Assembly (NCBI RefSeq): GCF_024345975.1
Contig: NZ_JAGQCD010000005.1
Location: 97,279-161,278 of the forward strand
Direction: 5' to 3'
Length of the DNA stretch: 64,000 bases
Source: Cyanobium sp. Cruz-8D1
Lineage (GTDB): Bacteria > Cyanobacteriota > Cyanobacteriia > PCC-6307 > Cyanobiaceae
The notes beneath the pieces were generated by a model. It saw nothing but the letters and a program-made list of their open reading frames with translations, had not been told where the DNA came from and ran no database searches. Made by a program: the position numbers and the translations under genes. Below, one piece after another: positions 5,824 through 47,146 of this stretch; the first letter of the stretch is position 1, and each line of letters opens with the position of its first letter.

Positions 5824-6727
5824 CGAGGAACCAGCCGTAACTGTGCAGGCCGATGCCGAGCAAGTTGACTCCGATGTAGCAGACGGCGATCACCACCAGG
5901 CCTGCGGAGGCCACGATCGCTGGCCGCCGGCCCTGCCAGCCGCGGATCAGCCGGGTGTGCAGGTAGGCCGCATAGACCAGCCAGCAGATCAGGGCCCAGG
6001 TCTCCTTGGGATCCCAGCTCCACCAGCTGCCCCAGGCCTCGTTCGCCCAGACCGCACCGCTGACCAGACCCACCGACAACAGCAGGAAGCCCACCGTGAT
6101 CGTGCGGTAGCTGAGGCTGTCGAGCTGTTCGCTGATGCGGAAGCTGCTGCTGCTCAGGGCCATCGCGCCAGGTCCGTCGCTGGCCAGCTGGGCCTGGCGG
6201 AAACCGCCGCTGCCGATCGAGCTGCCGCGCAACTCCAGATCCTGGTTGCGGTCAACGAACAACACAGCCACCGACAACAGGGAACCCACCAGCAGGGCGG
6301 CATAGCTGACCATGATCACGCTGACGTGCATCACCAGCCAGCTGGAGCGCAACGCCGGCACCAGGGGAGAGGCCTCCTGGAGGCGATCGGGGAGGGCGAA
6401 GCTGGCGAAGGCCACGCAACCCAGTCCCATGGGGGTCGCCGCCGCCGCCACCAGGGGGTTGGGCCAGCTGCGTTCCACCAACAGCTGGGTGAGGGTGCAG
6501 GCCCAGGCCAGGAAACAGAGCGACTCGTAGAGGTTGCTGATCGGGAAGTGGCCTGACTCCCACCAGCGCAGCACCAACTGGGCCGTCAGGCAGAGGTTGG
6601 CAGAGGCCACCAGCATCCTCACCACCGGGTTGCTGCGGCCGCCGCTGACGGACCAGAAGGCGATGGGCAACACCAGCAGCAGCAGGGCGAAGGCCGCCAG
6701 ACCAAGACCGATGACCGGATCGTTCAC
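5816..6727 (-). CDS. ccsA: Cytochrome c biogenesis protein CcsA (System II haem export)
   Basis: Thylakoid/cytoplasmic membrane haem-handling protein of the CcsAB (System II) complex that delivers haem to apocytochromes c such as cytochrome f and c6. It has 303 residues and multiple membrane segments. The haem-handling WWD domain is visible as [18 protein letters not shown], and conserved flanking histidines are present (for example AAYLHTR). The gene lies 54 bases downstream of the lptF/G-type gene and overlaps the next gene by 8 bases. CcsB is not in this window. Confidence 0.94.
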
Positions 6728-6781
6728 CAGGGTGCTGTTCGAAACCGATCCACTCTGCCGTGTCGTCCGGCGGGTGGGGCC

Positions 6782-8002
6782 TCAGCGGCTGGCCTGGCGC
6801 AGCAACCAGAGACCGCCGCCCAGCCCGATGAACACCGGCAGCCAGGCCGCCATGAAGGGCATCAAGGTGCCTGTGACCCCCAGGGAGCTGAAGATGAAGG
6901 ACATCAGGTAGTAACCGAAGATCAGCAGCACGCTGATGCCGAAACCCTGGCTGCGGCTCGTGCGGGAGTTGGGCCGGACCCCCAGGCTGCTGCCGATCAA
7001 GCCGAACACAAGACAGATGGCCGGGAACGCGAACTTCTCCTGGATGCGCACGCGCAAGCGTCGCGCCTCCTTGGTGTTATTGGCCTCCAACAGGAGCCGT
7101 TCCGCCGTGAGCGCCTGGCCGACGGTCATGGTGCTGGCATCGGTGGGCAGCTGGGCCACCTCAATCGGATCCCGGGTGAAGGGATAGAGGTAGCGGTCGA
7201 AGCTGGCGGAGGTGGTGGTGCCAGTGGCGACATCGATGTTGGTGATCCGGCCGTTGGTGAACTCCCACATCCCCTTGTCTTCATTCCATTTGCCAATCAG
7301 TGCCGTCAGCATCTGGCGATACCCTTCACGACTGAAGTCCAGCAACGTCACATCAAACATCACACCCTTGATGAATTTCCGGGCGAAAAAGATGTGGCTC
7401 AGAACTTTGACCGAGTCGCCATTCGGCAACTTGGCATCGCTGAAGCGGGAGTAGAGGGCGTTGTCGCTCTGCTCGGTGGCGATGGCCTTGCCAAGGGCCC
7501 GCTCCAGGCTGTTGGTGGCCTCAAGATTGGCCCGCGGCACAACCGCGTCGTTGAAGACGAACGTGAGCAGGGACATCACCAGGGCCAGGGCCATGGCCGG
7601 CAGCACCATGCGCCGGGTGCTCACCCCCACACTGCGCAGGGCGGTCAGTTCGCTGCTGCCTGACAGGCGGCTGTAGGCCAGCAGGGTGGCCATCAGGGTG
7701 GCCATCGGGAAGGACAGCACCAGAAAGGAGGGCAGCCGCAGCAGCAGCACCTTGACGGCCGCCAGCACCGGCAGGCCGGACTCAGCGACCCGTCGCACCA
7801 GCTCGAACACGGCCCCCACCGAAAGGGACACAGCCGTGAAGGCGGCGATGCCGAACAGCAGGGGGCCCAATTGCTCCTGCAGCAGCCAGCGATCCAGCAG
7901 GGGAAGATCGCGCCAGCGCGGGGTTCGCTTCCAGTCCCGCAGCCGTTCACGGCTAGGTAACTGCAGCCAGGTGGGGCGCTTCTCCAGCAGGGCTGGCTTC
8001 AA
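6782..8002 (-). CDS. LptF/LptG-family permease (YjgP/YjgQ)
   Basis: Inner-membrane subunit of the lipopolysaccharide export ABC transporter, which extracts LPS and passes it to LptA. The 406-residue protein has a cytoplasmic N-terminal coupling stretch (LPLLDRWLLQEQLGPLLFG), three transmembrane helices, a central periplasmic beta-jellyroll region (roughly residues 130-290) and three C-terminal helices, the LptF/G plan. Cyanobacteria commonly carry one such gene, so LptF versus LptG cannot be decided. It overlaps lptB by 4 bases, implying translational coupling within lptA-lptB-lptF/G. Confidence 0.92.
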   Translation of the reverse strand: MKPALLEKRPTWLQLPSRERLRDWKRTPRWRDLPLLDRWLLQEQLGPLLFGIAAFTAVSLSVGAVFELVRRVAESGLPVLAAVKVLLLRLPSFLVLSFPMATLMATLLAYSRLSGSSELTALRSVGVSTRRMVLPAMALALVMSLLTFVFNDAVVPRANLEATNSLERALGKAIATEQSDNALYSRFSDAKLPNGDSVKVLSHIFFARKFIKGVMFDVTLLDFSREGYRQMLTALIGKWNEDKGMWEFTNGRITNIDVATGTTTSASFDRYLYPFTRDPIEVAQLPTDASTMTVGQALTAERLLLEANNTKEARRLRVRIQEKFAFPAICLVFGLIGSSLGVRPNSRTSRSQGFGISVLLIFGYYLMSFIFSSLGVTGTLMPFMAAWLPVFIGLGGGLWLLRQASR

Positions 8003-43627: not shown

Positions 43628-44806
43628 TCAGGCGATGGCGGCAGCCACGGCCGCAGCGGGCCGGAAGGCGGGCAGCTCGCTGGCGAAGATGTCGAGCAAG
43701 CGATCGACATTTTCCGGGGTGCTGTTGTAGCCCATCAGGCCGATACGCCACACCTTGCCGGCGAGATCCCCAAGCCCACCGCCCACCTCGATGCCGAAAC
43801 GGTCGAGAAGATGGCGGCTGAAGGCCTTGCCGTCGACCCCCTCGGGGATGCGGACGGTGGTCAGGGTGGCCAGACGCAGGGGCTCGCTAACATGCAGCTC
43901 CAGGCCTAACCGCTCCAGGCCCGCCCAGAGCCGTTCAGCGTTGCTGCGGTGGCGCGCCCAGGCGACCTCCAGTCCCTCTTCGGCCAGGAGCCGCAGGGCT
44001 TCGCGCATGCCGAAGTTCATGTTGACCGGAGCGGTGTGGTGATACACCCGGTCGCTGCCCCAGTACTTGTTGAGCAGGGACACATCGAGGTACCAGTTGG
44101 GCACCTTGCCGGAGCGGGCGGCCAGCTTGGCCTCGGCCCGCGGACCCATGGTGAAGGGGCCCAGGCCAGGGGGGCAGCTGAGACCCTTCTGACTGCAGCT
44201 GTAGGCCAGATCCACCTTCCAGGCATCGATGTGCAGCGGCACCGCCCCAAGGGACGTGACCGTATCGAGCAGCAGCAGGCAATCATGCTGGCGGCAGAGG
44301 TCGCCGATCCCCTCCATCGGCTGGCACACGCCAGTGGAGGTTTCGGCATGCACCATCGCCAGGATGGCGGGCTTGTGGGCGATCAGGGCCGCTTCGAGTT
44401 CGGCCAGGTCAAAGGCCTCTCCCCAGGGCCGCTCAATCGTGACGACGTCGGCCCGGTAGCGGCCGGCCATATCCACCAAGCGCTGGCCGAAGTAGCCCAT
44501 CACCGCCACCAGCACCTTGTCGCCGGGCTCGATCGTGTTGGCCAGGGTCGCTTCCATGGCGGCACTGCCGGTGCCGCTCATCGGGATGGTCAGCCGGTTG
44601 TCGGTCTGCCAGGTGTAGCGGAGCAGTTCCTGCACCTCACCCATCAGCTCGATGTAGAGGGGATCCAGGTGGCCGATGGGCATCCGGGCCAGGGCCTGCA
44701 GCACCGTGGGATGGGCATTGGAGGGGCCAGGACCCAGAAGCAGTCGCTCCGGGGTGGCGATGGGATCCAGAGCGAGCCTGTGGGTGCTGCTGACGGTGGG
44801 AGGCAC
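43628..44806 (-). CDS. Class V aminotransferase (serine/alanine-glyoxylate type)
   Basis: PLP enzyme likely transaminating glyoxylate with alanine or serine in photorespiration. It shows LLLGPGPSNAHPTVLQALAR at the N-terminus, SGTGSAAMEATLANTIEPGD, LLLDTVTSLGAVPLHIDAW and the cofactor lysine in YSCSQKGLSCPPGLG. The frame is open to 44956 but that lies inside apcF, so I choose GTG 44806 (392 residues); TTG 44821 is an alternative. Neither has a good ribosome-binding site. It lies downstream of apcF by 61 bases on the same strand. Confidence 0.88.
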   Translation of the reverse strand: MPPTVSSTHRLALDPIATPERLLLGPGPSNAHPTVLQALARMPIGHLDPLYIELMGEVQELLRYTWQTDNRLTIPMSGTGSAAMEATLANTIEPGDKVLVAVMGYFGQRLVDMAGRYRADVVTIERPWGEAFDLAELEAALIAHKPAILAMVHAETSTGVCQPMEGIGDLCRQHDCLLLLDTVTSLGAVPLHIDAWKVDLAYSCSQKGLSCPPGLGPFTMGPRAEAKLAARSGKVPNWYLDVSLLNKYWGSDRVYHHTAPVNMNFGMREALRLLAEEGLEVAWARHRSNAERLWAGLERLGLELHVSEPLRLATLTTVRIPEGVDGKAFSRHLLDRFGIEVGGGLGDLAGKVWRIGLMGYNSTPENVDRLLDIFASELPAFRPAAAVAAAIA

Positions 44807-44867
44807 TGGGAGGAGAGGCAAGACCTGGCGGAGCGGCAGAAGTAATCTGAGACTAGGGAATAGCCGC

Positions 44868-45386
44868 TCAGCGAGCGCGGACGTTGCTGGAGGAGAGGCC
44901 ACGGCAGAGGTGCTCAAAGGGGGCCCGCACAAGGCCGGTGTCCACCAGGCCGGCATCAGCCAGCATCTCGGCGATCACGTCACCGAGCAGGGCGATGCTG
45001 CGCACGGTGGGACCGGTGGGAACGCCCAGGCTCTTGTAGGTGTCATCCAGGCCGTTGAGAACGCGCTCGTCGAGGATGGTGAAGTCGTCGGCCACCAGGG
45101 CATAGCTGGCGTAGCGCAGGAAGTAGTCCATGTCGCGCAGGCAGGCCGACAGACGCCTGGTGGTGTAAGCGTTGCCACCGGGGAGGAGCAGCTCGGGGTC
45201 TTCGAGCCAGAGGCGTTGCGCCGCCTCGCGCACAATGACGGCCGCTTCCCGGTTGATCAGTTCGACGGCGGCGAGCCGCAACGCCGCCTGGCCGTAGTAG
45301 GCATCAATCCGATCGATCGCGGAGCGATCGAAGTAGCGGCCCAGCTGGTCGTAGCGACCGATCAGACCGGTGATGGCATCTCGCAT
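44868..45386 (-). CDS. apcF: Allophycocyanin beta-18 subunit
   Basis: Core phycobiliprotein that pairs with the ApcE (LCM) domain in the phycobilisome terminal emitter region. ATG 45386 (MRDAITGLIGRYDQLGRYFD) gives 172 residues. The bilin site is the Cys in RLSACLRDMDYFLRYASYAL, with the following arginine and aspartate; the C-terminal part GVPTGPTVRSIALLGDVIAE is typical of beta-type chains, and divergence from ApcB plus its isolation from apcAB supports ApcF. Divergent from the glutamine synthetase-like gene by 163 bases. Chromophore supply would come from pcyA. Confidence 0.88.
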   Translation of the reverse strand: MRDAITGLIGRYDQLGRYFDRSAIDRIDAYYGQAALRLAAVELINREAAVIVREAAQRLWLEDPELLLPGGNAYTTRRLSACLRDMDYFLRYASYALVADDFTILDERVLNGLDDTYKSLGVPTGPTVRSIALLGDVIAEMLADAGLVDTGLVRAPFEHLCRGLSSSNVRAR

Positions 45387-45549
45387 GGACGAAACGGATC
45401 GACGCACCTGCAGCGGAAGGTAGCACTCGCAATCCGCCAGATTCCTGTGCTGCGGCTGGTTCTGGGGAATCTGACAGAAACGGTTACGCGGCCACCGGCC
45501 CGCCGGGGGGGCACCATCGTGGCGGCAGCCTTCCGATCCCCCTCCCGCC

Positions 45550-46875
45550 ATGGCCACCTCCGCCCAGGACGTCCTGCGCCGCCTCGGGGAGGACGGCATC
45601 GAGCGCATCGACCTCAAGGTGAGTGACCTGGAGGGACGCTGGCATTCGATCGGCCTGGAGGTCCACCAGTTCGGCCAGCTCGGTGACGGGGCCTTCCAAC
45701 GGGGTCTTCCCCTCGACAGCCTCGGCGTCGAGCCCAGGGGACTGATCCTGCATCCGGACCCCAGCACCGCCTGGATTGACCCCTTCCTCTCCCCCAGGAG
45801 CCTCAGCCTGATGGCGGCGTTCGAGGCGCCGGCGGCGGCGGCGGTGAGCTTCCGCCACTGCCCCCGCTCCCTGGCCAGCCGCGCCCTGGCCCTGCTGGCC
45901 GGCAGCGGTCTGGCCGATGACGCCCGTTTCGGCGTCAAGCAGCAGTTCTTCCTGTTCAAGGAGCTGGTCAGCCACTGCGACGCCCTGGGCAGCGGCTGCC
46001 GGGTCGCCATCGGCTCGGAGCGACCGGAGGCGATCGTCAGTGAGCTGCTGCTCACCCTGACGGCCCTGGGCCTGCGGGCCCGTCTGTCCCAGCCGGCAGC
46101 GCCCGGCCCCCTGCAGCAGCTGACCCTGGGCAGCGCCGATCCGCTGCGGGCTGCCGATGCCCTGATGGTCAGCCGCTACGTGCTGGGCCACGTGGCCCGG
46201 CGCCACGGCTGGAGTGCCACCGTTCTGCCGAGGCCCACCCTGGAGAAGAGCTGCGCCGGCCTGGAGGTGCACCAGAGCCTGTGGAGGGCCGGCCAGCCCC
46301 TGTTCTGCGGTGAGGGTACCTACGGCGACCTGTCCCAGACCGCCCGCTGGTACCTGGGGGGGCTTCTGCACCACGGCCCCTCCCTGGCCGCCTTCACCAA
46401 CCCCGGCACCAACAGCTATCGGCGGCTGAGGAGCGGCCCCGAGGCCCCGACGCGGCTGACCTACGCCAGGAACGACCCTTCCACCGTGGTCGGCGTGCCC
46501 GACACCGGCAGCGATCCGGCCAAGCGGCGGCTGCTGCTGCGACAGGCGGACGGGCTGGCCAATCCCTATCTGGCCTTGGCGGCGATGCTGATGGCCGGGC
46601 TCGATGGCGTTCGGCGCCAGTGCGATCCCGGCCCCCCCAGCGATCGGGAGCCCGCCGCCGCCGCTACCCCAGGGGATGCCCCTCCAGGCGCCAGCCTGCC
46701 CACCGACCTGGGCAGAGCCCTGGCCGCCCTGGCTGGCGACCATGACTACCTCCTGGCCGGTGGGGTCTTCAGCCAGGAACTGCTGGAGGACTGGATGGCC
46801 CTGAAGCGCCGGGAGGTGGAGGAGCTGGAGCACAGGCCCCATCCCCACGAGTTCGCCAGCGACCCGATCGCCTGA
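45550..46875 (+). CDS. Glutamine synthetase-like protein lacking all active-site ligands (pseudoenzyme)
   Basis: A 441-residue protein that aligns with type I GlnA throughout: DVLRRLGEDGIERIDLKVSD, TAWIDPFLSP, FFLFKELVSH, YVLGHVARRHGWSATVLPRP, EVHQSLWRAGQPLF, HHGPSLAAFTNPGTNSYRRL, NPYLALAAMLMAGLDGV, LLAGGVFSQELLEDW and PHPHEF. Against Salmonella GlnA all six Mn/Mg ligands are replaced: E129 by Lys130, E131 by Gln132, E212 by Gln181, E220 by Gln189, H269 by Glu239, E357 by Leu329. The R339/R344 arginines fall in ARNDPSTVVGVP and are gone, and the adenylylation loop is not recognisable. The flap Glu298 remains. No glutamine synthesis is expected; a binding, scaffold or regulatory role is inference. 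Divergent from apcF. Confidence 0.85.
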   Translation: MATSAQDVLRRLGEDGIERIDLKVSDLEGRWHSIGLEVHQFGQLGDGAFQRGLPLDSLGVEPRGLILHPDPSTAWIDPFLSPRSLSLMAAFEAPAAAAVSFRHCPRSLASRALALLAGSGLADDARFGVKQQFFLFKELVSHCDALGSGCRVAIGSERPEAIVSELLLTLTALGLRARLSQPAAPGPLQQLTLGSADPLRAADALMVSRYVLGHVARRHGWSATVLPRPTLEKSCAGLEVHQSLWRAGQPLFCGEGTYGDLSQTARWYLGGLLHHGPSLAAFTNPGTNSYRRLRSGPEAPTRLTYARNDPSTVVGVPDTGSDPAKRRLLLRQADGLANPYLALAAMLMAGLDGVRRQCDPGPPSDREPAAAATPGDAPPGASLPTDLGRALAALAGDHDYLLAGGVFSQELLEDWMALKRREVEELEHRPHPHEFASDPIA

Positions 46876-46876
46876 C

Positions 46877-47146
46877 TCAGGGCCGCAACAGCCAGGCCAG
46901 CAGAAGCCCCAGGCCCCCCCAGCGCAGTGCCGTCCAGAAGCGATCACCGTGCCGGGTGCTGGGCAGCAGGGCAGTGGGGAGGGGATCCAGCAGCCGCTGG
47001 GCCAGCTCCAGCTTTTGGCGCCGCCGCCGCAGGCTCACGCCCGTGGGGGGCACGGCCCCCGGGCGACCGGCGAGGCTCAGCACCGCCGCCAGATGGTGCA
47101 GCAGTCCGGGTGACGGCGGGCGACGGGGGCGCTGGAGTCGGCTCAT
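46877..47146 (-). CDS. Small hypothetical protein with C-terminal membrane helix
   Basis: An 89-residue protein from ATG 47146 (MSRLQRPRRPPSPGLLHHLA). It has a basic, Pro-rich N-terminus, a helical middle (GVSLRRRRQKLELAQRLLDP) and a C-terminal hydrophobic helix (TALRWGGLGLLLAWLLRP). No family recognised. Its stop lies 1 base from the stop of the convergent glutamine synthetase-like gene, and it is divergent from the next gene by 38 bases. Confidence 0.6.
   Translation of the reverse strand: MSRLQRPRRPPSPGLLHHLAAVLSLAGRPGAVPPTGVSLRRRRQKLELAQRLLDPLPTALLPSTRHGDRFWTALRWGGLGLLLAWLLRP

Follow-up and report, generated by a model that had tools for sequence, protein, structure and literature searches.

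In one clade of Cyanobium, the glnA gene has lost its metal site in place and now encodes a protein that is predicted to be inactive, is maintained by purifying selection and probably serves a non-catalytic role. The narrower part of this reading, that a dead but selected orthologue occupies the original glnA position, is very well supported, its inactivity being predicted. By the textbook account, ammonium enters metabolism through GlnA; this clade, to which a Cyanobium gracile genome belongs, lacks any recognisable working GSI and yet keeps the protein under selection. Its members carry database names such as 'type I glutamate--ammonia ligase' and 'glutamine synthetase family protein'; since several are named glutamate-ammonia ligase, models of nitrogen use in these strains may include an enzyme which the cells probably lack.

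The gene, here called pseudo-glnA, lies at 45550..46875 on the plus strand of the window (the whole stretch of 64,000 nucleotides that was analysed) as one uninterrupted ORF, which codes for a type I glutamine synthetase-fold protein of 441 aa that lacks the metal site. Profile searches matched it to Gln-synt_C (E 1.6e-71) and, below the cut-off, to beta-Grasp (E 2.3e-06; 27.6 vs 33.4 bits), and it missed the cut-off of NCBIfam TIGR00653 (280.2 bits vs 429.15). The glutamine synthetase catalytic domain and the fold, the latter by structure prediction, are present, in agreement with the earlier note on this DNA, which had described a full-length GS-I fold free of frameshifts and stops; a structure prediction with a pLDDT of 48 was set aside and no result was drawn from it. 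The GSIII_N domain PF12437 had no match at this locus, and in the search of the window's own genome it matched G000:C1 alone.

Alignment with live GlnA of the same genus placed K130 and Q132 (codons at 45937..45945) at the E129 and E131 positions, P182 and Q190 (46093..46119) at E212 and E220, E239 (46264..46266) at H269 and L329 (46534..46536) at E357, with residue names in Salmonella numbering. None of the six metal ligands is left (0/6), and P310 and G315 (46477..46494) stand at the positions of R339 and R344. Additionally, an in-frame deletion of about 30 residues, with its approximate junction at 46021..46026, removed live residues 155-184, a loop with EGGNLAYK..KEGYFPV; all of these features are on the plus strand. 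In group A, as the clade's 17 genomes are called here, the loop is missing in 17/17, as are E212, E220, H269, E357, R339, R344, N264 and Y179, four of the six ligands among them. E129 is kept in 9/17 and E131 in 2/17, so the earlier claim that all six ligands are replaced holds for the window protein and not for the whole clade, and the claimed loss of both arginines holds throughout. The Q181 and Q189 of that account were off by one (P182 and Q190) in a poorly alignable stretch, with no Glu under either numbering. Because E212, E220, H269, E357, R339 and R344 are gone in 17/17, the loss of the metal site is neither chance nor sequencing error, and recent decay was likewise ruled out by the same losses across 17 genomes together with omega (dN/dS) far below 1. 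No orthologue retaining the full metal site was found among the members examined, and E220, H269, E357 and R339 are missing in 41/41 database clusters (P0003-P0043, where P0003 is the window's own protein). All six ligands are present in 21/21 live GlnA tabled for the same genus, which represent 21 of its 22 live genomes (G030 is not in the table). Compared with the type I GlnA of cyanobacteria (3ng0, Synechocystis), the window protein lacks the metal site, the 155-184 loop and the phosphate-binding arginines, and its gene has lost the NtcA site.

By its position, the window ORF is the ancestral glnA, altered in place and head-to-head with apcF. Amongst 36 same-genus genomes, pseudo-GlnA was found in 14 (61-94% identity) and a live GlnA in the other 22 (46-49% identity over residues 160-436), with both together in none; three same-genus genomes with live-like matches (G289, G382 and G391) were left out of the tables, and two further clade members (G169 and G341) came from the family-wide search. 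The divergent neighbour at 44868..45386 on the minus strand is an ORF of 172 aa for an allophycocyanin beta-18-type subunit, presumably apcF, as it is named in the earlier note. It lies immediately upstream of pseudo-glnA in 17/17 genomes and of live glnA in 19/20, the twentieth being G031, whose contig ends there. Further out, gene order agreed in each of the 13 live loci (of 20) among the matches listed, which covered about 11 of the 14 pseudo loci, and a class-V-type aminotransferase (43628..44956, minus strand; no NCBIfam cut-off reached) is conserved beside apcF whether glnA is live or dead. Genome searches of the pseudo genomes found no second, live GlnA; what they did find were GlnN, an enzyme of the GSIII type, and paralogues with about 35% identity, and one of the clade genomes without live GlnA, G023, is a single contig. 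Since pseudo-glnA occupies the same position as live glnA and no other GlnA was found, it is best read as the orthologue changed in place. The apcF neighbourhood that had been described is thus confirmed, with a spacer of 163 bp and conservation throughout the clade; the proposed link to the phycobilisome draws solely on this neighbourhood, which live glnA has too. A tree of eight neighbour proteins from 35 genomes places the pseudo genomes as one clade among live ones (SH-aLRT 100).

The promoter has changed along with the protein. NtcA sites (consensus GTA-N8-TAC; at most one mismatch, within 300 bp) were found at live glnA in 18/19 genomes, 16 of them perfect, in a count that omits G032 (short extracted start), G017 and G030; by the same limits, none was found upstream of pseudo-glnA in the 17 clade genomes (0/15 and 0/2). 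A move of NtcA control to glnN was considered and rejected, as no gain was seen: perfect sites upstream of glnN occurred in 0/14 pseudo genomes (a set without G014) and 2/16 live ones, and those 14 genomes contained one one-mismatch site, at -300; that control did not visibly pass to glnN counts against the main reading. The spacer between apcF and pseudo-glnA (45387..45549), which contains no NtcA site, is 161-163 bp long in 17/17 clade genomes, against a median of 261 bp in live relatives. Across the 17 genomes its glnA side is 52% invariant and its apcF side 89%, vs 24% of fourfold sites (23/96). A 20-nt leader, GGCACCATCGTGGCGGCAGC (45510..45529, plus strand), is identical in 13/17 clade genomes, as counted by eye in the alignment.

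Comparable in-place changes of glnA were found in two other genera of Cyanobiaceae; a third has a frameshifted pseudogene, and in four more the gene is absent from some of the genomes. The family search comprised 400 genomes, of which 31 without a match, many of them incomplete, were set aside, as was G263; G293 and G296 were searched and then excluded as fragmentary. Group B (G081 and G126; loci L264 and L265; proteins P0048 and P0050) has E129Q, E212A, E220A/R, H269P and E327A at the glnA locus and retains E131, R339, R344 and E357. Group C (G095, G134 and G159; loci L259, L260 and L261) has lost all six ligands and is strongly diverged, with intact ORFs and an omega of 0.213 (codon model). 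The five genomes of groups B and C have no perfect NtcA site, and one-mismatch sites occur in 1/2 and 1/3, respectively. Beside apcF in G109, glnA is a pseudogene with frameshifts and stops (L262, G109:C2, about 6257-7665); this genome has glnN, G141 of the same genus code has a full GlnA match, and the G109 gene appears to be a recent loss caught in the act. In eight genomes of four genera (g55, g67, g68 and g71) apcF is present and glnA was not found; for one of them, G131, only 338 bp of contig follow apcF, and the absence relies on searching the genome in an assembly that is 76% complete. Full GlnA matches do occur elsewhere in g67, g68 and g71.

A wider tree of 60 rows requires 6 live/dead changes, 5 of them forced by well-supported branches, and the GlnA protein tree unites groups A and C (SH-aLRT 99); both trees carry long-branch warnings and midpoint rooting only. 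Groups A and C may not be independent, since they are joined in this tree and a transfer between them, which would give a common history, is possible; vertical placement of group C was not rejected (AU p 0.125). Of the 86 positions changed in both A and C, 26 carry the same replacement (permutations gave a mean of 17.8, p 0.001), a weak indication of convergence given GC bias and the possible shared history.

The residues that groups A and C both retain cluster around a single segment. Of 366 positions invariant in live GlnA, group A retains 137 (in at least 16 of 17 genomes) and group C 124, with 91 shared (odds ratio 11.7, p 3e-24), and the excess persists when only the 130 positions that vary in a set of 16 distant cyanobacterial GlnA are counted, 30 of which A and C share (odds ratio 14.6). 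Live residues 281-300 are the best kept (A 0.90, B 1.00, C 0.88), and by conservation counts the best-retained segment of the window protein, of which all three groups preserve the greater part, is QPLFCGEGTYGDLSQTARWYLGGLL (residues 249-273; 46294..46368, plus strand). From this shared retention we infer a surface or packing element with a non-catalytic use, although fold constraint alone may produce the same pattern.

The sequence of events that we propose is as follows. GSIII (GlnN) would have rendered GlnA catalysis dispensable by supplying the cell's glutamine in place of GlnA; nitrogen control and the metal site would then have been lost, in either order; and selection would now protect a surface that live GlnA already used outside catalysis, most likely for the binding of a partner protein. 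The best candidate for the protected surface would be the segment QPLFxGEGTYxDLSQTARWYxGGLL, with the catalytic cleft free to change. Such a second role does not seem to be generally needed, since glnA is absent in some genomes of four glnN-bearing genera and frameshifted in G109.

We infer a non-catalytic, partner-binding role in preference to a ligand sensor or a slow relic. A neofunctionalised sensor, whose non-catalytic cleft would have kept its binding of glutamate, glutamine or a nucleotide so as to report the nitrogen state, is an unlikely reading, even though G267, H271, R321 and R359 are retained in 17/17 genomes of group A and S273 and R355 in 16. With H271, S273, R321, R355 and R359 kept in at least 16/17, a ligand pocket may survive, which counts against the partner-binding reading. 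New residues are also fixed in the loop replacing the phosphate-binding arginines, where live N334, S338, Q339 and N341 have become R, A, R and D in 17/17. However, the cleft set of group A is kept no better than the rest (mean 0.37 vs 0.48 elsewhere), its preferential loss not being significant (p 0.25); cleft residues in group C are retained less than others (2/22 vs 83/214, p 0.005); and the NtcA site is gone.

Constraint on pseudo-glnA is relaxed yet strong. Under a codon model, omega over the 17 clade genomes is 0.178 (lnL -10070.97 vs -10602.23 with omega fixed at 1), with 0.173 and 0.137 in two subclades, each far from 1; values for close pairs were 0.10-0.19. These values, far below 1 across orthologues, bear out the selection on the fold that the earlier note had argued for. 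The tightest quarter of the gene is codons 201-300 (0.092) and the loosest codons 101-200 (0.286). Omega is 0.026 for live glnA (19 genomes), and the approximately sevenfold higher value here implies that much constraint has been released, against the reading of a retained function. A slowly decaying relic, dispensable and still unbroken without a present role, would also agree with an omega that exceeds those of eight tested neighbour genes in pseudo genomes (0.010-0.110) and with the decay or loss of glnA in G109 and some genomes of four genera. It is nevertheless strongly disfavoured, as fixing omega at 1 costs 531 lnL units for the whole clade and 155 and 142 for shallow subclades, the ORF is intact in 17/17 genomes, the spacer length is constant and the leader is conserved.

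The proposed replacement by GlnN is consistent with its distribution. PF12437 was found in all 31 genomes whose glnA is dead or absent (A 17, B 2, C 3, D 1, absent 8), in 21/22 same-genus live genomes and in 18/36 other live genomes, hand-picked from the 400 and called live by match strength rather than by residues; these counts are not phylogenetically independent. Among the genomes examined, GlnA is dead only where GlnN is present. The window genome (3.97 Mb, 108 contigs) encodes five PF00120 proteins: pseudo-GlnA, GlnN, two that pass the TIGR03105 cut-off and one more distant; by eye, all four besides pseudo-GlnA have their metal motifs in place. The two TIGR03105 members of the three further paralogues could supply glutamine too, against the proposed reliance on GlnN.

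That the dead protein co-assembles with an active paralogue, GlnN or another GS-like enzyme, and tunes it is very improbable. In its favour, GlnN is present in 17/17 clade genomes, the fold prediction resembles GS, and group A has preserved most of the C-terminal RPHPHEF-type segment; however, GSIII is far from GS-I in sequence, the same segment is lost in group C, and glnN occurs in many genomes with live GlnA or without any GlnA. The earlier suggestion of a dead paralogue that joins or inhibits the dodecamer of a true, coexisting GlnA has only the GS-I fold match in its favour. It can be dismissed with near certainty unless assembly gaps hide a glnA, as the gene sits at the locus of live glnA and the searches of the clade genomes, of which G023 is a single contig, found no live GlnA.

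A surface role and a loss of GSI each have parallels. Passages of two papers (PMC6316151, PMC4923085) describe Pseudanabaena PCC 6903 and Synechococcus RS9917 as GSIII-only cyanobacteria; like these, the present clade has GlnN without a working GSI, but glnA is reported there as missing and is kept under selection here. According to another paper, picocyanobacteria carry glnA in all but freshwater SC5.3 strains (PMC9361551). Our literature search, with most subscription papers outside its reach, found no paper on a dead cyanobacterial GlnA. Lengsin, a vertebrate lens relative of glutamine synthetase that is said to be inactive, keeps a GS-I-like fold without catalysis; unlike Lengsin, pseudo-GlnA is bacterial and an orthologue that was altered where glnA has always stood, and its own family offers comparable cases. 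Judging by their entry titles, GS-GlnR (7tfa), GS-TnrA (4s0r) and GS-GlnK (8tge) indicate that GS-I surfaces bind regulatory proteins, although those synthetases are active and pseudo-GlnA is predicted to be inactive.

More tentatively, and with the balance somewhat against it, the surface of picocyanobacterial GlnA might serve a second function that does not depend on catalysis, and lineages with GlnN might repeatedly have stripped catalysis, kept that function and freed it from nitrogen control, giving a series of live, partly dead, dead but selected, pseudogene and gone at one locus. A graded series of this kind would allow a role of GlnA beyond catalysis to be tested, and would show, in a testable form, how a central enzyme passes to a distant isozyme.

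Several minor observations concern the locus and its relatives. No credible RNA element was found at pseudo-glnA (3 Rfam matches, all below the gathering score), and a pattern scan of 45300-47100 found no Sigma-70 or terminator pattern. An antisense ORF of 487 aa (45484-46947, minus strand) over pseudo-glnA is probably a high-GC artefact. The apcF side of the spacer, 45387-45480, at about 89% invariant far above fourfold sites, is likely the control region of apcF. P0057, from a Synechococcaceae MAG and beside the live P0060, has E129V and E131D as its sole changes among the tabled residues together with an overlapping loop deletion; it may show another loss at its beginning, or else a fault in the assembly. 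Lastly, the three further GS-like genes of the window genome (L001, L002 and L004; G000:C1 and C21) keep their metal motifs, and two of them lie within about 17 kb of glnN.
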